From Erythrobacter mangrovi (GTDB lineage: Bacteria > Pseudomonadota > Alphaproteobacteria > Sphingomonadales > Sphingomonadaceae), in the NCBI RefSeq assembly GCF_013260645.1, contig NZ_CP053921.1, forward strand, positions 2,653,289 through 2,717,288: a DNA stretch of 64,000 nucleotides, written 5' to 3'. The notes beneath the pieces are model-generated. The model was not told the origin of the DNA, ran no database searches, and worked only from the letters and a program-made list of their open reading frames with translations. A program made the position numbers and the translations under genes. This document shows, in pieces, positions 18,943-46,195 of the stretch. The stretch's first letter is position 1, and every line of letters starts with the position of its first letter.

Positions 18943-20145
18943 ATGAGCCTCAATGTGCAGGAAATCAAAGGCTTCCGGGCTGCCGACAAGTCGTACAAGA
19001 AATACGACTCGCGGGGGTTACTGCTTCTGGTGAAGCCGAACGGCTCCAAGCTCTGGTATTTCAAGTACCGCTTTGGCGGGAAGGAAAAGAAGCTACCCAT
19101 CGGCGCGTTCCCAGAGGTCAGCTTGTCGCAGGCGCGCCAGCTTCGCGACCGGGCACGGCTCAAGGTTTCCGATGGCATCGATCCGATGCTGGAGCGGAAG
19201 CGCAAGAAGGCCAGGATCAAGCTAGGTGCGGAGAACACCTTCGAGGTTATCGCCAACAAGTACATCGACGAGAAGATGGTGCCCGAAGGCAGGGCGGAAG
19301 CCACGCTGCGCAAGGCGCGCTGGTTCCTCGAACTGCTCAAGCCTGCAATCGGCAATATGTCAATCAACGACGTCGACCCACAATTGATGCTGGCAGCGCT
19401 CAAAAAACTCGAAGCCAAAGGCAATCTCGAAACCGCGAAGAAGTGCCGCTCCTTCGCAAGCCGGGTGTTCCGGTACGGGGCTGCGCTTGGCCAGTGCCAA
19501 ACCGATCCAACGTCGATCTTGCAGGGCGCATTGGTCACACCAAGGGCGCGGCACTACGCGGCGATCCTTGAGCCTGAGAAGTTGGGCGGGCTGCTTCGCG
19601 CTATCGATGACTTCGAATGCTACCCCGCCACGAAGTTCGCGTTGAAGATCGCACCCCATGTCTTTGTGCGACCCGGTGAGCTTCGCCATGGCGAGTGGAA
19701 TGAGATCGATTGGGACAAGGCCACCTGGACAATTCCGGAAGGCAAGATGAAGGCGCGCCGGACCCATGTTGTGCCTCTATCGCGCCAGGTAATGGACCTG
19801 TTTCGAGAGCTAAAATCGATTACCGGTAGCAAGGGCTACATTTTCCCGGCGTTCCATACGGGCCAGCGCCCAATGAGCGAGAATACGATCAATGCGGCAT
19901 TCCGTCGCATGGGTTTCACCAAAGACGAAGTGACAGCGCATGGCCTGCGCTCAACGGCCTCGACCATGCTCAACGAGAGCGGGCTCTGGCATCCCGACGC
20001 CATCGAGCGCGCTCTCGCCCATGGCGACAGCAACGCTATTCGCGGCGTCTACAATCGGGGGAACTACTGGGATGAACGCGTAAAGATGGCGCAATGGTGG
20101 AGCGATTATCTTGATGAGCTTCGACTCTGCCAAGCGAGCCGCTGA
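18943..20145 (+). CDS. int: Tyrosine-type site-specific integrase
   Basis: Product of 400 residues: N-terminal DUF4102 arm-binding domain (about 1-85), SAM-like core-binding domain (about 105-190) and catalytic domain with the first Arg in VRPGELRHGEW, HGLRSTAS as H-x-x-R, and a Tyr in VYNRGNYW. Full length for P4-type tRNA integrases. Next to tRNA-Leu and reading away from it, as usual for such elements. It would catalyse integration and excision at the tRNA 3' end. Confidence 0.95.
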   Translation: MSLNVQEIKGFRAADKSYKKYDSRGLLLLVKPNGSKLWYFKYRFGGKEKKLPIGAFPEVSLSQARQLRDRARLKVSDGIDPMLERKRKKARIKLGAENTFEVIANKYIDEKMVPEGRAEATLRKARWFLELLKPAIGNMSINDVDPQLMLAALKKLEAKGNLETAKKCRSFASRVFRYGAALGQCQTDPTSILQGALVTPRARHYAAILEPEKLGGLLRAIDDFECYPATKFALKIAPHVFVRPGELRHGEWNEIDWDKATWTIPEGKMKARRTHVVPLSRQVMDLFRELKSITGSKGYIFPAFHTGQRPMSENTINAAFRRMGFTKDEVTAHGLRSTASTMLNESGLWHPDAIERALAHGDSNAIRGVYNRGNYWDERVKMAQWWSDYLDELRLCQASR

Positions 20146-25103: not shown

Positions 25104-26015
25104 TCAGGACACCTCGTAGGACTTTTCCAGCAGCGGCTTGGCCTTCTCGAAATCGGCGGAACTCTGGATCGTGATCTCAAGATCGCCAGTGCCGAAATGA
25201 CCGATACCGCGCACGTCACGCGTGAAGCCCTGCTCAAGCACGACAGAGTCGGGATCAACCTTGACATAGACCAGCAGCTTCTTGGCCTGGTTGCGGAACT
25301 CAAGGCTGGCGAAGTTCTTGATGCGCCGAAAGGCCACATAATATGCGGTCGTCTTGGTTTCGACGTCGTCGCCAAGTGCCAGCATGAAGTCTGACATCAG
25401 GTGGTAGAGGTCGGTCAAAGCCTGGGGAGCCTCCGCCATCTGATCCTCGATAGTTTTGTAGTTTGGCTTGGCGCCAGTTGGCGAAGCGGGCACAGCGACT
25501 GAAGTCGGCCCCTTCGCGCTAGCCGACGTAAGTTGTTCCAGTAGCAAAAGGTCTCCTTCGAATTTTCGGTAGCGGATGAGCGAAATATTGCGGTTCATCT
25601 GCTTGACCGCGTGCTCGTCATACTTCCCGAAATCTCCGGCAATGCAGATCAGGCGCGGCCCGGACCAATCGACGGCTTTGGCTGCGTCTTTGCCGAGCTT
25701 CTCCAGCACAAGCCATTCAAAGTCCTTGCGGTGTCCCATCAGCCAGTCGAGGTAGAACAGGCCCTGGTTGATCACGTTTTCGTTTGATGAACGCTTGTAC
25801 TCGATCACCACCGGGCTGTTGTTCTCGTCGATCCCGAGACTGTCCATCCGACCGCCCTCGTTGGTGATGAACTCGCTCGCAAGAAAACGAACACCGAGAA
25901 GGCTCTCAAGATTGGCTTCGAACAAAGTCTGCAGCGACTTCTCCAGTGCAACCGCTCCGCCGGACAACTCGGCAACGCCGCCCTGAGCCATTCGGTAAAG
26001 TTTAATGTCGCTCAT
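25104..26015 (-). CDS. DUF5655/NucS-like PD-(D/E)XK nuclease
   Basis: Product of 303 residues from ATG 26015. The N-terminal half has a restriction-endonuclease-like core: a helix with FEANLESLLGVRFLASEF, then D58 in GRMDSLGID and E72-x-K74 in VIEYKRS, the usual D...ExK triad. The C-terminal part (about 190-303, with VYVKVDPDSV) fits DUF5655. Such proteins are common in defence islands. Same strand as the helicase-nuclease, but a 1 kb gap with a small gene in between makes a joint transcript uncertain. Confidence 0.82.
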   Translation of the reverse strand: MSDIKLYRMAQGGVAELSGGAVALEKSLQTLFEANLESLLGVRFLASEFITNEGGRMDSLGIDENNSPVVIEYKRSSNENVINQGLFYLDWLMGHRKDFEWLVLEKLGKDAAKAVDWSGPRLICIAGDFGKYDEHAVKQMNRNISLIRYRKFEGDLLLLEQLTSASAKGPTSVAVPASPTGAKPNYKTIEDQMAEAPQALTDLYHLMSDFMLALGDDVETKTTAYYVAFRRIKNFASLEFRNQAKKLLVYVKVDPDSVVLEQGFTRDVRGIGHFGTGDLEITIQSSADFEKAKPLLEKSYEVS

Positions 26016-26287
26016 ATCGGCTCTTACCTCGGCATCTTGTAGCGGGCGGTTATTAAGTGCTTGTAGTCGCCGGATCGACAGCGTCGCAATTGCAATATGT
26101 TCGATCGATCCTCTTGGTCGAACACAGTGCAAAGGAAGGTCTCTACGGCCATCCCAAAGGATCGCCTTGCGATCAAGAAGGAACGGCACCCTTGGAACGG
26201 CGCGAAGCCGACGGAGGTCCTGCGCGCGCGGTCAGTGCGCCAGCGGGCCTCCGGCAATGAGAGAGGCAAGAGTGCCTGCGGGTTAGC

Positions 26288-26452: not shown

Positions 26453-26543
26453 CCAAGACCTTCACCACTCTCAAAACCACAGTTTGAAGTTGTTCACACC
26501 AAAAAACTTGCACAGCTTCGCAGTCTGGCATAATGGCACGTTC

Positions 26544-27194
26544 ATGAAGCGATTGAGCGACATCTCTGACATCAGCATGGGGGCGACGCCCGCACCCGAA
26601 GGCGATGAGGCTCGCTATCTGCGCCTGGCCAATGTCATCGAGGGCCAAATCGTCGGTGATGCTGTCGAAGGTGGGGGTCCGGTCAAGGGCTCCGATTCGC
26701 AGCTGCGCATCGACGACATCGTCGTGCGTGGCCGCGGGCCCGATCTCTCGGCAGCCATGGTGGGTGAGCAGCATGTCGATGCTTACCCCACAGTCGAACT
26801 GTTCGTCATCCGGGTGGACCGCGATGTCGCTGAACCGGCCTACGTCGTTGCCTACATCAACCAACCGCACATTCAGGCGAATCTGGCGCAAGGGGCACAG
26901 GGCACGGGCTTCGTGCGCCTCAATCGCCCCACCCTTGCCGACCTGGAAATCCCGCTGCCCCCTATGATTGAGCAGCGCATGATCGGCTCACTTGCGCTCG
27001 AAGCGCAGCAGGAGCTGACGATCCTTCAAGAAATCATGGAGCGCCGCAAGCGCCTCCATTCCGAACTTCTCCATCGTGCGATGGTGAAGGCCCGTGCCGA
27101 GGACGGCAATCCCCAGCACGGGCGCATAACCGGTCTGAACGACGCGCAAACGTCCTCAGACCTTCTTTCCGCTGATACAGAAAGTACCCCTTAA
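26544..27194 (+). CDS. Single-TRD type I restriction specificity protein (half HsdS)
   Basis: Product of 216 residues, about half a normal HsdS (around 400). It has one target-recognition domain with the typical VEGGG...IDDIVVRGRGP and ...LPPMIEQRMIGSLALEAQQELTILQ pattern, where PLPP-x-x-EQ begins the conserved spacer helix. ATG 26544 was chosen because the domain starts there. It could dimerise to recognise a palindrome or exchange with the full HsdS encoded 2 kb downstream. First gene of a seven-gene rightward operon. Confidence 0.75.
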   Translation: MKRLSDISDISMGATPAPEGDEARYLRLANVIEGQIVGDAVEGGGPVKGSDSQLRIDDIVVRGRGPDLSAAMVGEQHVDAYPTVELFVIRVDRDVAEPAYVVAYINQPHIQANLAQGAQGTGFVRLNRPTLADLEIPLPPMIEQRMIGSLALEAQQELTILQEIMERRKRLHSELLHRAMVKARAEDGNPQHGRITGLNDAQTSSDLLSADTESTP

Positions 27195-27449
27195 ATGAAC
27201 ATTCTCTCTCAGAACCGCAACCGGCTTCGTACTGTGCACGTCACCTGGCACGCCCATCCGGGCGAATGGCAGGTCAAGGAAGGTGGCAGTAGCACCGTCC
27301 TGACGCGCTCTTCGACGAAGCCCCCGGCCATTGCCTATGGCCGGTCCTACGCCCGCTCGATCAAGGGCGAGCTGTTCATCCACAACATGGACGGGACCAT
27401 CGCCGAACGCGAAAGCTACGGCAACGATCCGTTTCCGCCGCGCGGGTGA
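27195..27449 (+). CDS. DUF2188 family small protein
   Basis: Product of 84 residues whose ATG directly abuts the TAA of the half-HsdS gene. The HVTWHAHPGEWQVKEGG start and the IHNMDGTIAERESYGNDPFPP end match DUF2188, a small beta-hairpin domain where the C-terminal pattern is usually GRDGRIREKDSYG. Function unknown. The tight junction indicates co-translation with the specificity gene. Confidence 0.8.
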   Translation: MNILSQNRNRLRTVHVTWHAHPGEWQVKEGGSSTVLTRSSTKPPAIAYGRSYARSIKGELFIHNMDGTIAERESYGNDPFPPRG

Positions 27450-27509
27450 AGAAAGGCGGGGCGGCCGCAAGGTCGCCCCGCTCACCCTTGATAAGAATTG
27501 AGGCAAGAC

Positions 27510-29019
27510 ATGACGACCAAACTTGATCAGGACGATCTTAACAACGCGGTGTGGGCAGCATGCGACACGTTCCGTGGGGCGGTGGACGCGACGCGCTACA
27601 AGGATCTGATCCTTGCCGTGCTGTTCTGGAAGTACCTTTCGGACCATGCTGAATGGCAGCGCAAGGACCTCGCCCAGCGGTACGGTCCCAATGACCCGCG
27701 CGTCGAACGGCAGATGAAGCGCGCTCGCTTCGTCCTGCCGGAAGGTACCGATTTCAAGACCATCCACGCCAAGCGCCTGGCCGACAATCTCGGCGAGCTG
27801 ATCAACAAGGCCTTGGAAAAAATTGAACTCGAGAACGAGGCGAAGCTCAAGGACGTGTTTCGCCCGATCGACTTCAACTCGGAGACCCTGCTCGGTGCGA
27901 CCAGGGAGCGCAATCGCCTGCTCAAGCTCCTACTGGAGGATTTTGCCAAGCCTTCGCTGGTCCTGACGCCAGACAAGGTCAGCGAGGACGCGATCGGCGA
28001 AGCCTATATCTACCTGATCAGCCGCTTCGCAGCGGACGGTGGCAAGAAGGCGGGCGAATACTACACCCCGCGCAAGATTTCGGAGATCGTCGCCCGCCTG
28101 GCCGATCCGAAGTCCGGCATGACGATCTGCGATCCGGCCTGCGGCTCCGGCGCGCTGCTTATTCGTGCGGGCGAGGCGGCAAAGTCCGATGACCACCGGC
28201 TGTTCGGGCAGGAAGTGAACGGCTCCACCCACGCATTGGCGCGCATGAATATGTTCCTCCATGGCGAGGACAATGCGCTGATCGAATGGTGCAACACCCT
28301 CACGTCGCCCGCCCTGATTGAAGACGACCGGCTAATGCAGTTTGACCGTGTCGTCGCCAACCCTCCGTTCAGCCTGGACAAATGGGGCGCGGATGTCGCC
28401 GAAACCGATCCCTACAAGCGGTTCAAGCCGGTGATCCCGCCCAAGAGCCGTGGCGATTACGCCTTCATCCTGCACATGCTGGCAATCGCCAAGCGGGGCG
28501 AAGGGCGCGTGGTCTGCATTGCGCCGCATGGCGTTCTGTTTCGCGGCGCGGCGGAAGGGCGCATTCGCGAAGACCTTGTCCGCCGAAACCTGCTCGACGC
28601 CGTGGTTGGCCTGCCCGCGCAGCTTTTCCCTTCGACCGGCATTCCCGTGTGCCTGCTCGTGTTCGACCGGGCGCGCGAAGAGGGTGGCGCGCGCGCGAAC
28701 GTCAAGGACGTGGTCTTCGTCGATGCCTCGCGCGAATTCGTGCCGGGCAAGCGCCAGAATGCGCTGGGCGACGACCAAGTCGAGCACATCGTCTCGACTG
28801 TGATGGAGCGCCGCACTGAAGACAAGTACTCCAGCATCGTCACCTTTGCCGAGATGGAAGCCAACGGCTTCAACCTCAACATCCCGCGCTACGTGGATAC
28901 CTACGAGCCCGAGCCCGAAATCGACGTGGCGGCATTGCAGAAGGACATTGACCGTCTGGAGACAGAACTGGTCGAGACGCGCAAGCGGATCGAGCTGCAC
29001 CTCGCGGAGCTCGGGATCG

Positions 29020-29027
<8 letters not shown>
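27510..29027 (+). CDS. hsdM: Type I restriction-modification DNA methyltransferase HsdM
   Basis: Product of 505 residues with an N-terminal helical domain (about 1-150) and an N6-adenine methyltransferase domain: SAM motif DPACGSG at 208-214 and catalytic NPPF at 284-287. The C-terminal helix (about 465-505) would contact HsdS. ATG 27510 follows an AGG; a TTG 12 bases earlier is less likely. Its stop overlaps the hsdS start by eight bases. Forms the M2S methylase and, with HsdR, the restriction complex. Confidence 0.95.
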
Positions 29028-30191
<1,164 letters not shown>

Positions 30192-30195
<4 letters not shown>

Positions 30196-31835
30196 GCCAG
30201 CTTTCCGAAGCCTTGGGCGCACTGATCGAGCAGCCCGCTCCGTCCGCGACGCAGATTCGCCCAGTCAGCCGCATCAGCTTTTCGCTGACAGACAAGGATG
30301 CCTTCGAGAAGTCGGCGCAGTTCGCCGTCGATTGGCTGGCGGGGAAGATTGGCGGGGCGCTGCCGGGTGAAGCGCGCGCGCTCGCAAGCTTCGATACGCG
30401 CGGGGCGGATGGCTTTCACCCCTGCCATGCCGTGCGTGTGGACGACCACAGTGGCAGCATCTGGGCTGCGCGCATCGACGAGCCCGGCTCGAAGCCCAGT
30501 GCCGGTGAAACCTGGTCGACCGAGATGTTCGTGGAAAGGCCGATCGGCGGCCTGGTCCGGTTTGGCGCGCAACTAATGGTGCGGCGTCCCTCGAACAGCC
30601 CAGACATCAGGCCTAGCCGGCCGCGCCTGATCTACGATCTCCTTTCCACGCTCTCCGCCGAGGCAGATGGCGAAGCGATCACCGATGCACCTGCAAATCT
30701 GACCACGCATGACGACGCGGATACTCTGGCGAGGCTGATCTACCGACCTAAGCGTCGCCTGCCCATCGTGGTCGTTTCCACCGATTATGATGGGTGGTCG
30801 CAGGTCAATTTGCACCAGCTCGGCGTCCGGCTGTCGGGGGCTGCGCATCTCTATGCTGCTGGTCCTGAAACCAGTTGGGAGCTTACCCGCCTGATCGGCA
30901 AGCGCATGTCCACCTTCAATGGTGGCGTGCGCATCTACATGCCGGGGATCGAAGAAGAGGACGAGGATCCGTTTCAGCATCCTCTGTGGCTCATCCCGAA
31001 GGCCGGGCCAAATCACGCGCTGATCAACCAGCTTGCCGAACGCATCTTTCCGCTCGGCTTTCAGGACAACGAAGGCGAAACGCGCTTCTGGCACATCGGC
31101 CAGCTCCGCAAGGCTGCGTCGGCGACCGTTGCCATGGAGACGGTTGGCAGCGAAACCGAGAAGCTCGAAGCACAGATCGCCGCATTGCAGGACGAAGTTG
31201 CCGACCTGAAGGAGCAGCTGGAAGTTGCGGCGGGCCTTGAGCGTATTGCCTCCTCTGCCGAAAAGGCCGCGCAGCAAGACGTCCAGCGTATGCAGGACGA
31301 GATCGGTCGACTCAAAGCGGAAAACTATCGCCTCCGCTCTTCGGCCCAGCATGCGACGGTCGTCGAGGAGAAATCCGCAGAGCGGGAGCTCGCCAGCTAC
31401 GACGATCTGGAGGACTGGGCCGACGAAGTGCTTGGCCCCCACATCTTCATTCACAACAAGGCAATCCGCGAGTGCCGAAAGAACGGGCACCCCGACATGC
31501 TGGAGCGGATTGCCAACACTCTGCTGGCCATTCGTGACCACTGGATTCCGTTCAAGCTTGAAGGTGGGCTCGACCGGAAAGAGGCCGCAACAAGCGCCTT
31601 GGCTGCACTTGGGGTCGAAGACGAAGGCTGCTTCACTCGCCGCGAGAAGGCCAGCGAGAAGCCGGAATATTCGGTCAGGGAAGGCACGATCACCTGGGTC
31701 CTGTACGACCACTTCAAATACGGAAATTCGCGCCAGAATTCCGAGCAGTTCCGCATGTACTACGCTTGGGATGAAGAGGGTCGCCGCCTGATTATCGGCA
31801 AGATGCCGTCCCACCTGCCCAACGACATGTCATGA
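30192..31835 (+). CDS. Unrecognised coiled-coil protein inside the type I restriction operon
   Basis: Product of 547 residues, no family recognised with certainty. Layout: an N-terminal domain (about 25-135); a second domain (about 183-270) with LPIVVVSTDYDGWSQ and FNGGVRIYMPG then HPLWL; a strong coiled coil (about 318-385); a C-terminal module (about 400-547) ending with LYDHFKYGNS, FRMYYAWDEEGRRLIIG and PSHL, rich in spaced His, Lys, Arg and Trp. It overlaps hsdS and hsdR by four bases each, so it is made in step with the restriction subunits. A regulator, a remodelling partner or an added effector are all possible. Confidence 0.85.
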
Positions 31836-34800
31836 CCGTTTCCCCCGAATTCGCGCTGTCTGAAAGCGGCGGCGTTCAGCTGCAAGTGCTGACGACGCTG
31901 GCCAATATGGGTTGGCGCTACCGCACCCGCGCGGAAATTGACGCGATGCGAAAGGGACACCGTAGTTCGGTCATACTAACCCCTCTCGCTCAGGAAGCTT
32001 TGGCGTCGATCAACAGCATCGATCAGGATGGAGTGGATCATCCCTTCACAAGCCAAGCCATCGACGAAGGGCTTTCTCGCCTGCGCGATCTGCGGTTCGA
32101 CGGACTTCTCCGGACCAATGAACTGGCGACCGACTATCTTCAGCTCGGGACTGCCGTTCCCCAGACGATTAATGGACTGACCCGCGAGCGGCAGTTGCGC
32201 TTCGTCGCCTGGGGCGAAAGCGAGTGGCAACGGAACAGTTTCGATATGACCGCCGAGTACGCGGTCGATGGGCGAAACGATGCAATCCGCTGTGACATCG
32301 TTCTGTTTGTGAACGGCATACCGTGGACGGTTATCGAGCTCAAGCGGTCGGGCGAAAAGACATCGCAGGGCATTAGCCAATCTATCCGGAATCAGGGCCA
32401 GGCTGAAGGCGCTCCCCAACTCTTCGTGCCCGTTCAATTGCTGATCGCCGGCAACCCTGCCGAGCCGCGCTATGGCACTGTTGGTACACCTGCCAAGTTC
32501 TGGTCGGCGTGGCACGAGCCCGCGCACGGTGGGATGAGCGAGGCGGAAGTCGCCGCTCTAGTAAACGCTGAGCCGCCCGAAGACGTCATGGCCGCAATCC
32601 TTTCCGATTTCGCCTCTCACGCCCGCCGCCACAATGCACTGCGCGAAGCGGGGCATCGCTGGGTGACGGAACTCGACAAGACGATTGTCGGCTTGTGCCG
32701 CCCAAACCGCCTGCTCGATCTGGCCCGACGCTTCACCCTCTTTGACAAAGGCACGAAGAAGGTCGCACGATACCAGCAGGTCTCAGCAGTCTATCGAATT
32801 CTTGAGCGCATCGAACAGCGCGACGAAGCCGGACGCCGCAAAGGCGGGGTGATCTGGCACACGCAGGGTTCGGGTAAATCACTCACGATGGTCATGCTAG
32901 CGCGTGCGCTGGCGTTCCACTTGAAGGACGCGAGCCCTCGAATTGTGATCGTTACCGACCGGCGTGATCTCGACCGGCAAATCAAGAAGACCTTCGCTGC
33001 CACAGGCTTCGAACCCGCTCAGGCGCGCACCGGCGAGCATCTGATGAAGTTGATCGAAGACGGCGCGCCACTCGTGACGACCTTGGTCAACAAGTTCCGC
33101 TCAGGCGTGCGGAAACGGGCGCTCGCGTCCGACAGTTCGGACATCTTTGTTCTCGTCGATGAGAGCCATCGCAGCCAATACGGAAATGACGATTCGATGC
33201 ACGAAGACATGCGCCGGGTGCTGCCGAATGCCTGTTATATCGGCTTCACCGGCACGCCGCTGTTCAAGGACAAGGCGCGAAACACCTTTCTGAAATTCGG
33301 CGAGCTTATCGATTCTTACCCAATCTCGCGTGCGGTGAAGGACAAGGCTGTTGTGCCGCTCCTCTATGAGGGTCGCATTGTAGCGGAAACCCTCAACGCC
33401 GCGGCGCTCGATGCCTGGTTCGAACGTTCGAGTGACGGCCTGACGCCGGAACAGAAAGCTGAACTCAAGCGGCGAATGAGCGCGCCGGGGGTGATACAGA
33501 CAGTTGAAGCGCGACTGAAGGCGATCGCTTGGGATATCCGACAGCATTATCTGCAAGGCTTCAAGGGAACCGGACTGAAGGGGCAGGTTGTCGCACCTGA
33601 CAAGCAATCTGCGGTGATGCTCAGGACGTTATTCGACGCGCTCAACGAGGGCCAAGTCGATCAGGTCACAGCTGAAGTGATTATCTCTGCGCCCGACAAA
33701 CGCGAAGGCCACGATCAGGTTGGAGTCGCACCGAAAAAGGAGGTGAAGAGGTTCTGGGCCGAGATGATGGCCCGTTACAAGACCGAGGACGAATACAACG
33801 AAGCGATCGTGGCGGAGTTTGATTCACCCGAAAGTCCCGACCTGCTGATTGTAGTCAGCAAGTTGCTGACTGGTTTCGACGTACCGCGCAATACAGTGTT
33901 GTACCTGACACGGGTGATCAAGGAACACGATCTCCTGCAAGCCATTGCCCGCGTTAATCGCGTGTTCGACGCCGACGATGCACCGCCAAAGCCCTTCGGT
34001 TACATCGTCGACTATTGCGGCGTTCTGGGCGAGCTTAACGAGGCACTGGAAAGCTACGATGCTCTGGCCGGCTTCGACGATGCCGATATCAACAGCGCAC
34101 TTTTCGCAATTCGCACCGAAGCCGAGAAGCTGCCGGGATTGCATTCGGATTTGCTCGATCTCTTCGCGGGCGTGGCTAACCGCTACGATCAGGAAGCCTA
34201 TGCGCAAGCGTTGGCGGATGAGGCGATGCGCGATCTTTTTCATCGCAAACTTTCGGCGTTCGCCTCAACGCTGAACGTCGCCTTGTCATCACGCCAATTT
34301 GTCGAATCTGCTCCGCGCGAACGATTGGACCGTTGGAAGGCGGATCTCAGTCGCTTCGAACTGCTGCGCCAGGATGTCCGCCGCCGTTACGCCGACACTA
34401 TCGATTGGGCACAATACGAAGGTCGCGTCCGTAAACTGCTCGCCGAACATATCACTGCGCACCGTGTCGATACCGTGGTCGATCCGTTCAACATTTTTGA
34501 TGAAGGAGCCATTGAGGAGCAAATGGCGGGCGGGCGGAGCGCTGCGTCCGTCGCTGATGAAATAACCAGTCAGATCAGCCGGACCATCACTGAAAACTGG
34601 GATGAAGATCCCGCCTTTTACGAAGCATTCTCCAAGCTGGTGCAGGACACGATCGACAGCTTCCGGCAAAAGCGGATCAGCGAACAGGAATATCTGAAGA
34701 AGGCACGTGGGCTAAAAGATCAGGCGCATGCCCGTGCGGAATCGAAGGAAGTTCCGGAGGGGCTACGCGGCAATGGTCATGCCGTGGCGTTCTGGGGCGT

Positions 34801-35065
34801 AATAGCGAAAGAGCTCGGCGAACTATCGCAGGAGGCTGAAGAACATGCGCCTGACATCGCACTCAAACTGCTGGAAATTGTCGAGAAACATCGCAGGGTG
34901 GGCTGGCAAGAAGATCGCGATCAACAGAACCGAATGCGCGCCGCTGCCGACGACTTCTTCTTTGATACCGCCCCAGAGCAATTTGGGCTTTCGCTCGATC
35001 CCGAAAGGATCGACGGATTGGTCGATCAAATTCTGACTATCGCTCGTGAACGCTTGCCCAAATGA
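31832..35065 (+). CDS. hsdR: Type I restriction endonuclease subunit HsdR
   Basis: Product of 1077 residues: nuclease domain with D155, E169 and K171 (WTVIELKRS); helicase motor with HTQGSGKS at 343-350, DESH at 443-446 and GFTGTP; then the helicase C-terminal domain with LTGFDVPRNTVLYLTR and a long helical tail. It translocates DNA and cuts unmethylated foreign DNA in complex with HsdM and HsdS. Overlaps its neighbours by four bases on both sides. Intact. Confidence 0.95.
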   Translation: MTVSPEFALSESGGVQLQVLTTLANMGWRYRTRAEIDAMRKGHRSSVILTPLAQEALASINSIDQDGVDHPFTSQAIDEGLSRLRDLRFDGLLRTNELATDYLQLGTAVPQTINGLTRERQLRFVAWGESEWQRNSFDMTAEYAVDGRNDAIRCDIVLFVNGIPWTVIELKRSGEKTSQGISQSIRNQGQAEGAPQLFVPVQLLIAGNPAEPRYGTVGTPAKFWSAWHEPAHGGMSEAEVAALVNAEPPEDVMAAILSDFASHARRHNALREAGHRWVTELDKTIVGLCRPNRLLDLARRFTLFDKGTKKVARYQQVSAVYRILERIEQRDEAGRRKGGVIWHTQGSGKSLTMVMLARALAFHLKDASPRIVIVTDRRDLDRQIKKTFAATGFEPAQARTGEHLMKLIEDGAPLVTTLVNKFRSGVRKRALASDSSDIFVLVDESHRSQYGNDDSMHEDMRRVLPNACYIGFTGTPLFKDKARNTFLKFGELIDSYPISRAVKDKAVVPLLYEGRIVAETLNAAALDAWFERSSDGLTPEQKAELKRRMSAPGVIQTVEARLKAIAWDIRQHYLQGFKGTGLKGQVVAPDKQSAVMLRTLFDALNEGQVDQVTAEVIISAPDKREGHDQVGVAPKKEVKRFWAEMMARYKTEDEYNEAIVAEFDSPESPDLLIVVSKLLTGFDVPRNTVLYLTRVIKEHDLLQAIARVNRVFDADDAPPKPFGYIVDYCGVLGELNEALESYDALAGFDDADINSALFAIRTEAEKLPGLHSDLLDLFAGVANRYDQEAYAQALADEAMRDLFHRKLSAFASTLNVALSSRQFVESAPRERLDRWKADLSRFELLRQDVRRRYADTIDWAQYEGRVRKLLAEHITAHRVDTVVDPFNIFDEGAIEEQMAGGRSAASVADEITSQISRTITENWDEDPAFYEAFSKLVQDTIDSFRQKRISEQEYLKKARGLKDQAHARAESKEVPEGLRGNGHAVAFWGVIAKELGELSQEAEEHAPDIALKLLEIVEKHRRVGWQEDRDQQNRMRAAADDFFFDTAPEQFGLSLDPERIDGLVDQILTIARERLPK

Positions 35066-35772
35066 CCGAGAAAGGCGTTGCAGCGTGGGGCGGGCGGTCA
35101 ATTCCGTTTTCGGTGGTTCGGTCCGAACGCAAGACGATGTCAATTACCGTGGACCCTCACGGAGACGTTATTGTCCGAGTCCCGAATGTTGCCGATATTG
35201 AGGAAGTGATCGAACGAATTGCGAAGCGCGGCGGTTGGATAAGCTATCATCAGATGAACGCTGAACGCTGGCGGCCCCGAACGCCCGCACGCACATATGA
35301 ATTGGGTGAGACACACCTCTTTCTTGGTCGGCAGTATCGGCTATCGGCTGAAATTGGATTAGCGCAGTCGGTCAAGACTTCGGGCGACCGCATAGTCCTA
35401 ACAATGCACCGACCGAACCGCATTGCGGAACGCAAGGCACTGCTAGACGGTTGGTATCTCACACAGGCCAGAGAGATAATCGGCAAACGCCTAGACAAGG
35501 TGTTCGCCCCATTTGCCGTTTTGGATCATCCACTCCCGCGCTTGATCGTTCGAGATTTAACTCATCGCTGGGGAAGCTTGACGTCACGTGGAAACCTCGT
35601 CGTGAGCCGCCATATCGTCCGTGCTCCTCGGCAATGCATCGACTATGTTCTTGTTCATGAGCTTTGCCATCTTGAGCACCGCAACCATGGTGCGGAGTTT
35701 TGGAACCTTCTCGATCGTATGATGCCGGATCATCAAAAAAGAAAAGCAAGGCTCGAAAAGATCTTGCTTTAG
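35062..35772 (+). CDS. YgjP/DUF45-type zinc metallopeptidase
   Basis: Product of 236 residues with the zincin motif HELCHLEHRNHGAEFW near the C-terminus, preceded by the RWGS-type strand, as in YgjP (SprT-like, M48-related). It overlaps hsdR by four bases and is the last gene of the operon. Genes of this family recur next to type I hsdR in many genomes, to my knowledge without an assigned role; processing or turnover of the restriction complex is one possibility. Confidence 0.9.
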   Translation: MTEKGVAAWGGRSIPFSVVRSERKTMSITVDPHGDVIVRVPNVADIEEVIERIAKRGGWISYHQMNAERWRPRTPARTYELGETHLFLGRQYRLSAEIGLAQSVKTSGDRIVLTMHRPNRIAERKALLDGWYLTQAREIIGKRLDKVFAPFAVLDHPLPRLIVRDLTHRWGSLTSRGNLVVSRHIVRAPRQCIDYVLVHELCHLEHRNHGAEFWNLLDRMMPDHQKRKARLEKILL

Positions 35773-35778
35773 TTGCCG

Positions 35779-36663
35779 TCACTCCTGGCAACTTTCCAAC
35801 CACTCGGCAGCCTTGGCCGCCGCGCTCGCGGCGGTGAAGATCGCCCGATTGTCGGCCTTCAGCACCTTGAGCCAGCTCGCGAGGTAGCTGGCGTGATCCG
35901 GACGCGGACTGGAGGAAAGACCAAGGTCGCCGCAAAGGAATGCTGAACCAAGCTCGGCCACCAGTTCTTCCATAGCGTAGGCATCGTCGCCGAACCGCTT
36001 GCCGAAAGCCCGCGCAAGACGGTGGTCGGCACCAGACCAATGGACGAGCTCGTGCAACAAGGTAGCGTACCAGTTCTGCGCCGCGCTGGCGTTGGCCGTT
36101 GCGAAGAACCGCTCGCGGTCCGGCATGGTGATGGTGTCGGTCGAGGGCGTGTAGTGGGCGCTGTCGCCGTTGATGCGCACGGTGGCCCCCGTGGCAGAAA
36201 CGAAAGCGTCCGCCTGCGGGATCGGGTCGAAGTCCTCGCCGTCCGGCACGTCGGGCATGGCGTAGCCTTCGACCTGGCAGGCGTTGAACACATGCGAGGC
36301 CTGCGCGAAAATGCGGATCGAGCTGTCTCTTTCCTCGGCCTGATCGTCATCACGACTGTCGAAGACCTTGTAGAAAACGATGGGCGAAGCCTTCTCGCCT
36401 TTGCGAACCTGGGAACCAAGCGACTGCCACTGGCGATAGGTTGCCCAGAGGCCATGCCCGAAGTCCTGCGCTTCGGCACTGGCCCAGAGGGCGAGCACGT
36501 TGACCCCGCGATAGGCTTTCCCAGTCGCCGCATTCATGGGGCGCGAAAGCGGAGCAGTGCTGCGATGCCAAGGGAGCGAGAACTTGTCGGTGCCGCGTTC
36601 AAGGGCGGCGATGATCTGGTTGGCGATCGTGTTGTAGATGCTGGCGGTAGTGGTGCTAGCCAT
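35779..36663 (-). CDS. ArdC-like antirestriction protein
   Basis: Product of 294 residues. The N-terminal part (about 7-130, with PWHR, GKAYRGVNVLALW and VRKGEKASPIVFYK) is the ssDNA-binding ArdC domain, and the C-terminal part is a zincin with HELVHW at 204-209. ArdC-type proteins travel with conjugative DNA and shield it from type I restriction in a new host. It faces the restriction operon tail to tail, seven bases apart, and goes with the leftward mobilisation genes. Confidence 0.92.
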   Translation of the reverse strand: MASTTTASIYNTIANQIIAALERGTDKFSLPWHRSTAPLSRPMNAATGKAYRGVNVLALWASAEAQDFGHGLWATYRQWQSLGSQVRKGEKASPIVFYKVFDSRDDDQAEERDSSIRIFAQASHVFNACQVEGYAMPDVPDGEDFDPIPQADAFVSATGATVRINGDSAHYTPSTDTITMPDRERFFATANASAAQNWYATLLHELVHWSGADHRLARAFGKRFGDDAYAMEELVAELGSAFLCGDLGLSSSPRPDHASYLASWLKVLKADNRAIFTAASAAAKAAEWLESCQE

Positions 36664-36884: not shown

Positions 36885-39632
36885 TCAGCCCAACCCGGCA
36901 CCCATTGCCTTTGACTTTCCGGCTTCGGGAGTGCTCGCAGACATAGCCGTCTGCTTCTCGCCTGCGCGCTCGTAGATTGCGCGGACAAGCTGGGCCTTAT
37001 CGTCGGTGACAACCACAGCCTCTGCCCTGGCGCGTGACAGGGCAACATAGAGCATTTTCTGATCGACCAGATTGGTGGAGCGGCTGTCGGCGTGGATCAG
37101 GACGCGCTCGGCGGTCTGTCCCTGGGATGCGTGAGCGGTCTGAACATAGGCGTGGCGCAAATGGGCATCGCGAGGATCGGAGAGATCGAGCTTTTGCTCG
37201 CGCCCGTTGGCGAGCTTTACCGTTGCCCGGCCACGGTCGGAATCGATGCGGGTAACGGCACCGCCAAGGCCATTGACCCGTCCGGCTTCGCCGTCGTTGC
37301 GGGTGAATTGCACGCGGTCGCCGGTGCGCAGCTCCATCGGCTTCGGCTCGAACACCTCGGCTCTGCCAGCGCCCCACTGTCGGGGATGCCAGTCAAGCGA
37401 ACGGCCATCGCGGCCTTCGAGGGCAATCCGCCCGCGCTCGGGATCGATACAGACAATCGCAAAGCTTTCGCCCCGGCGCACACCTTTGGTGGCGTAATCG
37501 CGGCTGAACCGGACGACATCGCCGATGGCATAACTTACTGCCTCGCGCGCTTCGGCACGGGTCAGGCCCTTCGCCTCCAGAGCATCGAACCGCATGGCTC
37601 CTGCCGTCAGCTCGCCGCGCTCGGTCAGTTTCGCACGGATTATGCTGGTGAGCCTGTCGCGGCCTTCGCGGGATGGCTCGATTACCAGCGTTCGTGCGCG
37701 CTCTGCTGGCGACAGGGCCAGATAGTGCCGGGCCATCGCCTCAAGGCGCACCTCCGGCGTTGCACCTTCGAGCACCTTGCCGCCGCCGCGTTCCAGTGCG
37801 GCCAGGGCCTTGCCAGCATGGCCCTCGATAGAGGCCATTACGGCTTCGCGGGTTTCGGCATTGGTCTGCCGGACCACCTCGGCAAGTTTCGCGGTCGCCA
37901 TGCCTGCCTGCTGCAACTGGGCGAAGGCTGCGCCCGCGCCGACTGATCCGAGCTGCTTGACGTCGCCGACTAGGACGAGCCTTGCTCCGGACTTGTCAGC
38001 ACGGGTCAAGAGCTTCGCCATGTCGTGAGCAGAGAGCATCGAGGCTTCGTCGACGATCCAGACGGCGTCCTTGCCCGCTGTCTTGGCCTCGGATGCGAGT
38101 AAATGCCGCGCCACGGTATCGCCGCGTAGGCCGAGCGCTTCGCCTAGCAGGGTCGCTGCCGATGCGGTCGGTGCAAGCGCGGTCACCGCTAGCCCGTGCC
38201 GCTTTGCCTCGCGCGCATAAGTAGCGAGCACGGTCGTGGTCTTCGCGGTCCCGGCATAGCCCTGAACGGCGGCGACACGATCCCGCGTAGTAAGCAGATC
38301 TGCGGTCGCCCGCTTCTGGTCATCGGTCCAGGCATAGCCGGATCGTGCCGACTGCCGTGCAGCGCGCTCGCTGGCCCGAGCCGCCGCTACCGGACTGACG
38401 AGCGATTGCGCCATGCCGCGTCCGGCCTCTTCAAGGCGCAGCATGGTTCGCTCGGTGTCGATGGCCTGCGGGGTGGTGAACCCGGCAAACTCCGCGCCGC
38501 ACCGGTCAAGGAAAGTGCGCGGGACAAGCTTGCCGCGCTCTCCGGCCTCGGCAATCGCAGCACTGATGGAGCCGTGCCCGGCTTTGCCAAAGGCAAATTC
38601 CCCTGCCTCGCGTGCCAGCGTGCTTGCCGCGAAAACTGCCTCTCGCTCGGATAGCTTGGCAGCGGCCCATGTCACCGCCTGCCGTGCCAGTAATTCCGGG
38701 CTGGCAGTCGCTTTGCTGCTCTTGGCCTGCTCTCTCGCTTGACCGATCAGCCTGTCTCGCACTGCCATGTCGAACCCGTTGGCATCGGCAGTCGCCCGCC
38801 ATTCGGCGCGCAAACTGCCATGATCCGCACTGGTCTTGGCCTCGCGCGTGTCGAGAGCGGCAATCTGCTTTTCGGCGGCACTGGCTTGCTCGCGACTGGT
38901 GCCGCGCTCGGCAAGCCGGGCATCTATTGCTGCTGTGCGCTGGCTCAGCGCATCGACCACCTTCTCCGGAACGCCTGCGATCTCAAACAGCGAGTCCTTG
39001 CCCGCCTCGACCCGGTAACCCAGCGCGGCAACGCCATGCGCCAGCTCCTGCCGGTAGATCGCGCCAATTTCCTTCTGCAACTGATAGAAGGCGCGCGGCT
39101 CAAGGCTGCGCCAGCTGCCATCCTTGTCCTGCGTCGCGTTGATGATCACGCTGTGGGTGTGCAACTGCGGGTCCTGCGCCCGGCTCGTAGCATGACGGAA
39201 AGTGGCGATGGCGAGGTTGCCGGTCACCTCGCGCCGGACCTCGCCGCGCTGTCTGATCCGCGTTGCCGCCATGTGCTTCTCGACATGGGCGAGCGCCACT
39301 TTCACCGCTGCGCCGTGCGCCTTGATCAGCCTTTTGTCTCCGGCAACCTCGGCCATGATCGAGACCGACTTGGGCGCGGACAGTGTGATGTCCCAGCCTG
39401 GCCGGTGCTCGACCTTGCCATCACGCGTGGTGCCAAGTTGTTGCTTGGCAACGCGGCCTTCGAGCAATTCAGCAAACTGCTCGCGATCGACTTCGCCCGA
39501 CAGGCCCAGCTTCTCCAATGCCTCGCCAAACCATTCGGACGGAGCCATGCCGCCTTCGGCATAATAGTCGTCGGCTTCGTAATAGTTCGCAGCCTGCCCG
39601 GCACTCGACAGGGCCGAGACTGAAGCGACCAC
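36885..39632 (-). CDS. MobF-family relaxase/helicase (TraA/TrwC type)
   Basis: Product of 915 residues with a GTG start that overlaps the end of the coupling-protein gene. N-terminal relaxase: Tyr pairs at 17-18 and 23-24, and the His triad at 147, 158 and 160 (LHTH). Then a RecD-like helicase with GYAGTAKTTT, VDEASMLSAHDM and VQTAHASQGQTAE. It would nick oriT, stay bound to the 5' end and unwind the strand for transfer. The C-terminal region is shorter than in F TraI. Confidence 0.93.
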   Translation of the reverse strand: MVASVSALSSAGQAANYYEADDYYAEGGMAPSEWFGEALEKLGLSGEVDREQFAELLEGRVAKQQLGTTRDGKVEHRPGWDITLSAPKSVSIMAEVAGDKRLIKAHGAAVKVALAHVEKHMAATRIRQRGEVRREVTGNLAIATFRHATSRAQDPQLHTHSVIINATQDKDGSWRSLEPRAFYQLQKEIGAIYRQELAHGVAALGYRVEAGKDSLFEIAGVPEKVVDALSQRTAAIDARLAERGTSREQASAAEKQIAALDTREAKTSADHGSLRAEWRATADANGFDMAVRDRLIGQAREQAKSSKATASPELLARQAVTWAAAKLSEREAVFAASTLAREAGEFAFGKAGHGSISAAIAEAGERGKLVPRTFLDRCGAEFAGFTTPQAIDTERTMLRLEEAGRGMAQSLVSPVAAARASERAARQSARSGYAWTDDQKRATADLLTTRDRVAAVQGYAGTAKTTTVLATYAREAKRHGLAVTALAPTASAATLLGEALGLRGDTVARHLLASEAKTAGKDAVWIVDEASMLSAHDMAKLLTRADKSGARLVLVGDVKQLGSVGAGAAFAQLQQAGMATAKLAEVVRQTNAETREAVMASIEGHAGKALAALERGGGKVLEGATPEVRLEAMARHYLALSPAERARTLVIEPSREGRDRLTSIIRAKLTERGELTAGAMRFDALEAKGLTRAEAREAVSYAIGDVVRFSRDYATKGVRRGESFAIVCIDPERGRIALEGRDGRSLDWHPRQWGAGRAEVFEPKPMELRTGDRVQFTRNDGEAGRVNGLGGAVTRIDSDRGRATVKLANGREQKLDLSDPRDAHLRHAYVQTAHASQGQTAERVLIHADSRSTNLVDQKMLYVALSRARAEAVVVTDDKAQLVRAIYERAGEKQTAMSASTPEAGKSKAMGAGLG

Positions 39633-41452
39633 TACACCGGTCCCGGCTTCGCGTCGGGCTCGGCACCTTTCGCGATCTCGCTAACTCGGTTCCACAGCGT
39701 CCCTGCCGGATCGCCTGGCACGTAACCGGGCTGACGCGGCTCGCCACGCCGGGTGATATGATCGGCGGTGAGACCGATGCGTGCAACGGGAAGGCCATCG
39801 GGGAGCAGCAGATAGCCCTGATGCGGAGAGAGCCGCAGTTCGCTTTCGAGCACGGCGGGGCGGAATTGCCGTTGGGTAGCAATGGTGGTGCGCGGCACTT
39901 CGCTGCCAATCGACAGTGTGTCGGTGGCAACCCGCAATTCCACCTCGCACTGGCCGATGGTCTCGCTCGCCCATTTGCGGGTTTCCTGATCGACGGTTTG
40001 CAGGAACAGCTTGGTGTTGCAGCAGGCCAGCATGGCCTCGGCGATGTTGTCACCATAGCGATTGCGCATCTGCCCGAGCGCCTGAAAGGTAAGCACAATG
40101 GCCGCACCAAACTTTCGTCCTTCCGGCAGCAGGCGAGCGAGGTTCTCGACACGCGGCAGGTCGGCCAGTTCGTCGAGCACGAACCAGATGCGGCGGTCTG
40201 GCGACGGGGACAGACCCAGCACCGCACTCGCCGCGCATTCGAGCCAGCATGCCATCAGCGGCTTGGACGCTTCGAAATAGTCTTCCTTGCGGGGGACAAA
40301 GATCCAGGGCCTGGCACACTCGCACTCATCCAGCTTGGCGATGAAATCGCGGAAGGCGAAGCGATCTTCTTCCTCATCTTCGACCTTCAGGAACTGGATC
40401 AGGTTTGCAGCCTTGGCGAGCATGAAGAGCACGCTGCCGGTGGCGCGGTCAGCGTCATTGGCAAAGGTGCGGGCCGACGACGTGTGCCCCAGCCACTCCT
40501 TCAATTGCACCTTGTCCTTGACCTGCAAGGCTTCGAGCAAAGCTTCGAGGCTGCAGTTCTTTTCTGCCCAGAGCGAGCGGATCATGTTGGCGACAAGAAT
40601 GCGGCTTGTTTCCAGCCAGACATCGTCATCCTGGCTGCTGGTTTCCGAAACGAGCTGGCGCGCTATCCGGTCGGCATCGGCGGGGTGCGATATCTCGTCG
40701 AAGGGCGTCCAGAAGGCGCAGCGCGCATCGAAGGGATTGAGGATGATATCCCCGCGCGCGGGGTTGTAATAGTGCGCGATGAATTCGCCCGACGTGTCAT
40801 AGACCAAAGCTGCCTCGCCGCGCCTCTCGATCCCATCGAGCATCTGGCGAAGGGCAGTGGTCTTGCCGCTGCCAGTTGTGCCGAGAAAGGCAAAGTGACG
40901 GGTCTCGATCCGACGCGGAACCGGGACCGGGCCGATGCGCAGGGCGTCCCCGCCACAGAGCAATGTCGTTTGCGCAGCGACATCCTCTTCATCCGCCACG
41001 CGCGTGCCGCCGATCACCCGGTCGGCGAGCGTATCTTTGCCTTGTTCGGACATGGTGCGCTGGAGCACCCAGACCGTGAACAGGCCAATCACAAAGCCCG
41101 TGATTGCACCGCCAGCGATCACTCTGACGACCTGCCAGAAGGTATCAGTGAAGAGCGGTTCAGAAGCAAACCAGGCGGCGGAAACGGTCCAGCGCTGGCC
41201 TTCCATCGCAATGTTCATCTTGATGTCGCTGCCCCCAAGGGAACCGAGCAGGGTCAGTAAGTTGGCCCACGCATATTGCACCGCTGTCGTTATCGCAGGC
41301 CCATGCAGCAGGAACTGCGGGGCGATGAGTGCTCCGGCCCCTGCTGCACCGACAGTGATCGTCGAAAAGAAGCGAAACCGCTGCTGCCATTGCGCCATGC
41401 GCACACGCCACAAGGCATGGGCGCGCGTGACAAAATCGATGTTCGAATTCAT
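39632..41452 (-). CDS. TraD-like type IV coupling ATPase
   Basis: Product of 606 residues with two N-terminal membrane helices (about 31-66 and 108-130), Walker A GTTGSGKT at 191-198 and Walker B WFVLDELADLPRV. It hands the relaxase-DNA complex to a mating pore. Since no pore genes are encoded on the element, it must use a partner's secretion system. Start overlaps the gene at 41449-41820 by four bases. Confidence 0.93.
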   Translation of the reverse strand: MNSNIDFVTRAHALWRVRMAQWQQRFRFFSTITVGAAGAGALIAPQFLLHGPAITTAVQYAWANLLTLLGSLGGSDIKMNIAMEGQRWTVSAAWFASEPLFTDTFWQVVRVIAGGAITGFVIGLFTVWVLQRTMSEQGKDTLADRVIGGTRVADEEDVAAQTTLLCGGDALRIGPVPVPRRIETRHFAFLGTTGSGKTTALRQMLDGIERRGEAALVYDTSGEFIAHYYNPARGDIILNPFDARCAFWTPFDEISHPADADRIARQLVSETSSQDDDVWLETSRILVANMIRSLWAEKNCSLEALLEALQVKDKVQLKEWLGHTSSARTFANDADRATGSVLFMLAKAANLIQFLKVEDEEEDRFAFRDFIAKLDECECARPWIFVPRKEDYFEASKPLMACWLECAASAVLGLSPSPDRRIWFVLDELADLPRVENLARLLPEGRKFGAAIVLTFQALGQMRNRYGDNIAEAMLACCNTKLFLQTVDQETRKWASETIGQCEVELRVATDTLSIGSEVPRTTIATQRQFRPAVLESELRLSPHQGYLLLPDGLPVARIGLTADHITRRGEPRQPGYVPGDPAGTLWNRVSEIAKGAEPDAKPGPV

Positions 41453-46168: not shown

Positions 46169-46195
46169 GGTTCGAGTCCTCTTCTGGCACCATTT
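46169..46195 (+). other. attR: decayed copy of the tRNA-Leu 3' end
   Basis: GGTTCGAGTCCTCTTCTGG, then CACCATTT, matches 18741-18768 except that one of three Gs in the acceptor 3' strand is missing. It marks the right border of the element. As a tRNA end it would give a defective acceptor stem. Confidence 0.9.

Follow-up and report, generated by a model that had tools for sequence, protein, structure and literature searches.

A HEC-07 family gene with a predicted RelE-like C-terminal domain in the hsdS–hsdR interval of an Erythrobacter mangrovi type I restriction operon

The HEC-07 gene and its operon

The window analysed here is a 64,000-nucleotide stretch of the Erythrobacter mangrovi genome (contig NZ_CP053921.1, positions 2,653,289 to 2,717,288), and it contains a type I restriction operon with an additional gene between hsdS and hsdR (Table 1). 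This gene is an uninterrupted frame of 547 codons with an ATG start, and the end of hsdS at 30195 and the start of hsdR at 31832 place a four-base ATGA overlap at each of its junctions; an original prediction from the sequence alone had described the gene in these terms, and reading of the frame and junctions confirms it. An ATGA overlap is also present between hsdR and the YgjP-like metallopeptidase gene, and most related operons that we fetched likewise have a YgjP-like gene beside hsdR. The hsdS frame is listed from a mechanically assigned TTG codon overlapping hsdM, and its real start is probably further downstream. A search with the 547-residue protein, in which the best 7,999 candidates were scored, gives at least 82 matching proteins at or below E 0.001. 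The ratio of nonsynonymous to synonymous substitution rates (dN/dS) is 0.14 and 0.04 relative to the same gene at two loci, L015 and L056 respectively, and no single domain reaches 0.14; for domain 2, dS is close to saturation in the L015 comparison. Given these relatives and ratios, 30192-31835 is a real gene.

Although the original prediction regarded the gene as unrecognised, its product has a full-length match to a catalogued candidate-defence family, HEC-07, through profile PDLC04161 of PADLOC 2.0, and three more HEC-07 profiles match at 5e-46 to 7e-19. The prediction had named a confident hit to a known type I accessory family with an assigned role as a finding that would tell against it; the hit is confident, but the family has no assigned role. 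HEC stands for Hma-embedded candidate (PMC12988326), and the same source states that several HECs, including HEC-06, had antiviral activity, citing a preprint by Payne et al. The window gene resembles the PADLOC family in its full-length profile match and in being a lone gene inside a larger defence operon, and differs in that the operon is a type I restriction system and not Hma. No paper on HEC-07 by name was found in the literature searched. Domains known to Pfam, NCBIfam and PHROGs were considered and rejected, weak coiled-coil matches being the only ones to HEC-07 among the matches listed; neither the window protein nor a profile of its C-terminal domain matches PDB sequences, and when a 29-row family profile is compared with PDB chains, the alignments of the best 60 of 127 rows fall within or near the coiled coil. 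The family is thus already catalogued as candidate defence and lacks a description in PADLOC 2.0 and the other libraries searched; the present analysis adds the proposal of RelE-like and thioredoxin-like domains, the candidate catalytic residues and the comparison of the slot as a site of cargo.

Table 1. Features of the window (window coordinates)
Feature	Position	Strand	Evidence or remark
Probable integrative mobilizable element, ~27.4 kb	18741-46192	.	tRNA-Leu 3' end to degenerate copy of that end
Tyrosine integrase beside tRNA-Leu(CAG)	18943-20145
hsdM	27498-29027	+	N6_Mtase 9e-89; TIGR00497 over cut-off
hsdS open frame	28846-30195	+	Methylase_S 1.7e-15; Specificity_I 4e-43
HEC-07 family gene, 547 aa	30192-31835	+	intact frame; PDLC04161 E 8.1e-118, residues 2-547 of 547
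Domain 1 (~residues 20-140)	30249-30611	+	weak helix-grip/START/Bet v1-like fold; possible ligand pocket, low confidence
Domain 2 (~residues 141-295)	30612-31076	+	thioredoxin-like fold without cysteines; R188, G216, R247-x-Y249-x-P251
Coiled coil (residues 321-387)	31152-31352	+	one long helix in AlphaFold2 (AF2) model; PDB chains align in and around it
C-terminal RelE-like domain (residues 396-547)	31377-31832	+	AF2 pLDDT 93.8, pTM 0.89; VIA and Foldseek; alignments
Codon of H507	31710-31712	+	C-terminal domain
Codon of R521	31752-31754	+	C-terminal domain
Codon of H541	31812-31814	+	C-terminal domain
hsdR	31832-35065	+	SWI2_SNF2 1e-75; HSDR_N 7e-28; TIGR00348 over cut-off
YgjP-like metallopeptidase, last gene of operon	35062-35772	+	PF01863 5.8e-50
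TrwC relaxase	36885-39632
TrwB coupling protein	39632-41452
tRNA-end repeat	46169-46192		24 of last 25 tRNA-gene bases, one base missing

Cargo in the hsdS–hsdR slot

We fetched 12 regions around hsdR homologues (34-48% identity), and nine of them (L075, L076, L078-L082, L084 and L085) have a readable hsdS together with an intact hsdR; L029 and L077 begin too near hsdR, and hsdR is broken in L083. HEC-07 is absent from between hsdS and hsdR in all nine, which is the lack of conservation that the original prediction had named as telling against it. Other open frames fill the slot in eight: KwaA and KwaB of Kiwa (L076, E 1e-78 and 6e-120), a DUF3800 protein matching PDC-M04A (L075), DUF3800 proteins with no PADLOC match (L078 and L080), PDC-S34 (L084), a SIR2-like protein with a weak match (L082), a 319-residue protein without assignment (L085) and small frames (L081). 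The slot of L079 is empty, and hsdS overlaps hsdR directly. ATGA overlaps to hsdR are made by KwaB in L076, by a 92-residue frame in L075 and by hsdS itself in L079, and hsdS of L075 overlaps the DUF3800 gene in the same manner. Because such overlaps are common to unrelated cargo and an empty operon, translational coupling belongs to the slot and is no mark of an enzyme partner, and the earlier argument from equimolar co-translation to membership of the complex is not supported.

Across 43 stretches with HEC-07 or a relative of it (the window, L015-L023, L046-L069, L086 and L096-L103), an hsdM and hsdR pair is present in four (the window, L015, L056 and L063) and not in the other 39, as judged by tblastn at 1e-8, which very divergent type I genes would escape; several stretches end at contig ends (e.g. 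L059, L061, L086 and L097), L068 and L069 are near duplicates, and L049 and L050 come from one genome. The frame caller omitted the HEC-07 frame in L020, L051, L052 and L058, that of L020 being seen among the overlaps. L050 offers no more than a weak hsdM-like piece. L015 and L056 contain the same operon in relatives of the window. In L063 the HsdM and HsdR are 27% and 24% identical to those of the window, the HEC-07 there is distantly related, and the order is hsdS, HEC-07 and a SoFic gene with successive ATGA overlaps, followed by hsdR; this is a second, separate embedding of HEC-07 in a type I operon. The original prediction that the gene belongs to, or controls, the restriction complex could appeal to the ATGA overlaps on both sides and to purifying selection, which in three related elements acts on it together with hsdM and hsdR. 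Nonetheless, an integral fourth subunit or regulator of the enzyme is highly improbable, since the gene is missing from the nine other readable operons, one of which joins hsdS directly to hsdR, and its relatives are found at loci where no type I genes are seen; on these operons and loci we reject identity as a type I subunit.

Similar insertions are known elsewhere. DarTG2 of E. coli EPEC and RloF of Campylobacter jejuni lie between hsdS and hsdR, and a type I operon of Vibrio cholerae contains TgvAB (PMC12255303, PMC11411939); all share with HEC-07 the extra gene or pair inside a type I operon, and the cargo proteins differ. A slot with interchangeable defence or candidate-defence cargo in one type I lineage fits the recombination-hotspot idea as put forward in PMC12255303. 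We note separately that in L076 (9795-11200) the kwaAB genes of Kiwa lie inside the type I operon, with hsdS on one side and hsdR on the other.

The integrase, the tRNA-end repeat, TrwC and TrwB indicate that the operon itself probably travels as cargo on a mobilizable element some 27.4 kb long. ArdC and Fic genes also lie between the tRNA-Leu gene and the repeat. A gapped search of the genome found the repeat (E 8e-4); an ungapped search found no copy, because the repeat lacks one base.

HsdM and HsdR are 98-99% identical among the window, L015 and L056, whereas hsdS differs (58% and 27%). In 200-base windows HEC-07 is 88-96% identical in DNA to that of L056 from 30305 on; relative to L015 its first kilobase is only 64-83% identical, returning to 96% from 31184. 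The joint drop against L015 and its recovery at 31184 suggest that hsdS and the putative sensor half of HEC-07 were exchanged together in one tract. The sharply different interval, comprising hsdS and the first kilobase of HEC-07, spans window positions 29522-31184, and flanking windows are ~88-98% identical.

Domain organisation and the predicted RelE-like fold

The original prediction of at least three domains around a coiled coil agrees with the AlphaFold2 model, in which two N-terminal domains are followed by the coiled coil and then by a separate C-terminal domain. Domain 2 has a predicted thioredoxin-like fold without the CxxC redox motif, the only cysteines of the protein being at positions 78, 428 and 480 and none lying within residues 141-295. 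Inference of a function from domain 1 was abandoned, the matches being too weak. In 102 of 114 relatives retrieved with the C-terminal domain (the best 120 of 137, minus six already known) that domain is accompanied by both N-terminal domains, in 10 by domain 2 only and in two by neither, and eight of the 12 that do not have the full pair are short (334-444 aa); the search admits proteins of 0.55-1.75 times the query length, and other architectures could escape it.

The C-terminal domain has the predicted alpha/beta fold of RelE, YoeB and YafQ. Four residues in the C-terminal motifs that the original prediction had singled out as rich in potential catalytic residues are conserved among 29 diverse rows (H507 in 25, K509 in 22, R521 in 27 and H541 in 24), and H507 and H541 are invariant in C-domain alignments of 24 and 22 rows. 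RelE-type enzymes rely on a general base (YafQ H50 or YoeB E46), a transition-state arginine (RelE R61) and a general acid (YafQ H87, YoeB H83 or RelE R81) (PMC6529426, PMC2807027). To judge from predicted secondary structure, rather than superposition, H507, R521 and H541 appear to match the order of these residues along the fold.

Sequence profiles do not confirm homology to RelE: hhalign comparisons of the C-terminal domain with YoeB, YafQ and ParE/RelE sets give probabilities of 0.08-1.6% (shuffled controls ≤0.31%, reversed ≤0.43%), which are not significant, using comparators from 23 of 30 loci (L104-L133, leaving out the mis-extracted L110 and L119 together with L106, L113, L126, L130 and L131, these five being partial, stop-containing or divergent). 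There is no RelE-type Pfam match to the domain, and no convincing match among predicted viral structures. RelE, YoeB and YafQ are small toxins with separately encoded antitoxins, whereas the HEC-07 domain is larger and fused, shows no significant sequence similarity to them, and at the window locus has no antitoxin gene alongside. The domain could be a non-catalytic or other nucleic-acid- or protein-binding module, for example ParE-like, with defence activity residing in the N-terminal domains, and domain 2 is conserved at least as well as the C-terminal domain. We regard this as unlikely, since H507, R521 and H541 appear to retain the RNase site in both residue order and chemistry and the two histidines are invariant in the alignments given above.

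The window locus does not have the organisation of a type II toxin-antitoxin system, there being no cognate antitoxin adjacent: no such gene stands beside HEC-07 because hsdS and hsdR overlap it on both sides. At other HEC-07 loci the comparison covered frames of at least 70 aa and would have missed small antitoxins. A selfish, addiction-like role in stabilising the mobile element, in place of phage defence, would suit a RelE-like predicted domain carried on a probable mobilizable element; it is improbable, however, as there is no room for an antitoxin gene between the overlapping neighbours, and some relatives, such as those of L016-L018, have ordinary genes around them, although mobile-element signs were not searched for there.

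Cami1 is a CARF-RelE effector of type III CRISPR systems. HEC-07 differs from it in showing no CARF match among the rows listed, in N-terminal folds that look unlike those of Cami1, and in having a coiled coil.

HEC-07 relatives and a proposed mode of action

HEC-07 is found in 11 of 385 genomes in a sample drawn evenly from the class, 10 of 396 from the order and 10 of 398 from the phylum, each sample including the window's own genome and the queries and cut-offs differing between samples. Plasmid copies are present in 13 of 72,556 records, every one at less than 60% identity and mostly 22-24%; no copy was found in 50,697 phage records (tblastn, 1e-5), and one viral contig (L086) has a relative. 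No conserved partner emerges from 183 neighbours compared (frames of at least 70 aa, up to four per side), apart from type I genes and a single group of three that has no assignment. Among 20 chosen neighbours at 17 loci, clear PADLOC matches occur at four (L020, to Wadjet JetA and JetC; L096, to a type III methylase and a UvrD/GajB-like helicase; L097, to the helicase; and L098, to DruH), and L062 has one marginal match; assigned neighbours in L016-L018 are ordinary (a regulator, a photolyase-related protein and an esterase). The loci without a conserved partner are consistent with HEC-07 acting alone in defence.

We propose, with about an even chance of being right, that HEC-07 is a one-protein, translation-stopping defence effector carried as cargo in the hsdS–hsdR slot on the mobilizable element. 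The helix-grip-like and thioredoxin-like N-terminal domains would sense an infection cue and otherwise keep the protein inactive, and the coiled coil would dimerise it and relay the signal. The RelE-like domain may then act as an RNase, with ribosome-bound mRNA as its probable substrate. H507 would serve as general base and H541 as general acid, R521 would stabilise the transition state, and the cleavage would halt translation and phage growth. The suggestion in the original prediction of an extra effector resembling defence-island modules fares well here, in light of the family match, the defence or candidate-defence cargo of related slots and the RelE-like predicted domain. What had been an unknown gene in a restriction operon now has a testable model, that of a RelE-like effector under sensor control, for which three residues are named.

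How such an effector might be restrained is suggested by PrrC, its closest positional analogue, which is encoded by an extra gene within the EcoprrI type I operon, is sequestered in the enzyme complex, is freed in T4 infection (PMC3874165, PMC2610378) and blocks translation (PMC3874165). By analogy, the surrounding restriction complex could silence HEC-07 and release it when a phage anti-restriction protein inhibits the complex. Such a guard would give the operon position a function, and HEC-07 has been retained with the operon in two close relatives with replaced hsdS. However, PrrC is a different protein, with no PrrC or ABC match to HEC-07 among the best 25 of 32 Pfam rows or in the NCBIfam or PADLOC results; the slot accepts unrelated cargo; and the HEC-07 proteins of the 39 stretches with no hsdM and hsdR pair need control without one. 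We therefore consider a guard distinctly unlikely, and the loci without type I genes favour self-control of the proposed effector over control by the restriction enzyme. A bolder version, which we hold to be quite doubtful, is that HEC-07 constitutes a broad family of antitoxin-free, single-chain RelE-type effectors, in which a sensor of thioredoxin and helix-grip folds, not a cyclic-nucleotide one, triggers RNA cleavage, and that in this operon it serves as a fail-safe firing upon inhibition of the type I enzyme.

Several neighbourhoods of HEC-07 relatives deserve mention. In L020 (10001-17316, Sphingomonas colocasiae) the relative is immediately 5' of Wadjet jetA and jetC (JetA and JetC PADLOC matches). 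In L096 (4575-11209) and L097 (250-3952), which are from the same genus, the next gene encodes a UvrD/GajB-like helicase, an arrangement that may represent a conserved multi-gene version, and in L096 the start of the relative directly adjoins a type III methylase gene. The relative in L066 (9716-15386, a Rhodanobacter plasmid) is flanked by two pairs of integrase and DNA-binding-protein genes, with a CBASS phospholipase gene near.

Within the window itself, a half-length HsdS-like gene (236 aa, with a single Methylase_S domain) and a DUF2188 gene lie 5' of hsdM (26484-27449), and an equivalent of the 236-residue frame is found in L015 and L056. Adjoining the restriction operon is a DUF5655 protein gene (25104-26189, minus strand) with a sub-threshold match to a NucS C-terminal-like nuclease, and an ArdC-type antirestriction gene (35779-36663, minus strand; ArdcN and MPTase-PolyVal) lies on the opposite strand immediately beside the type I operon.
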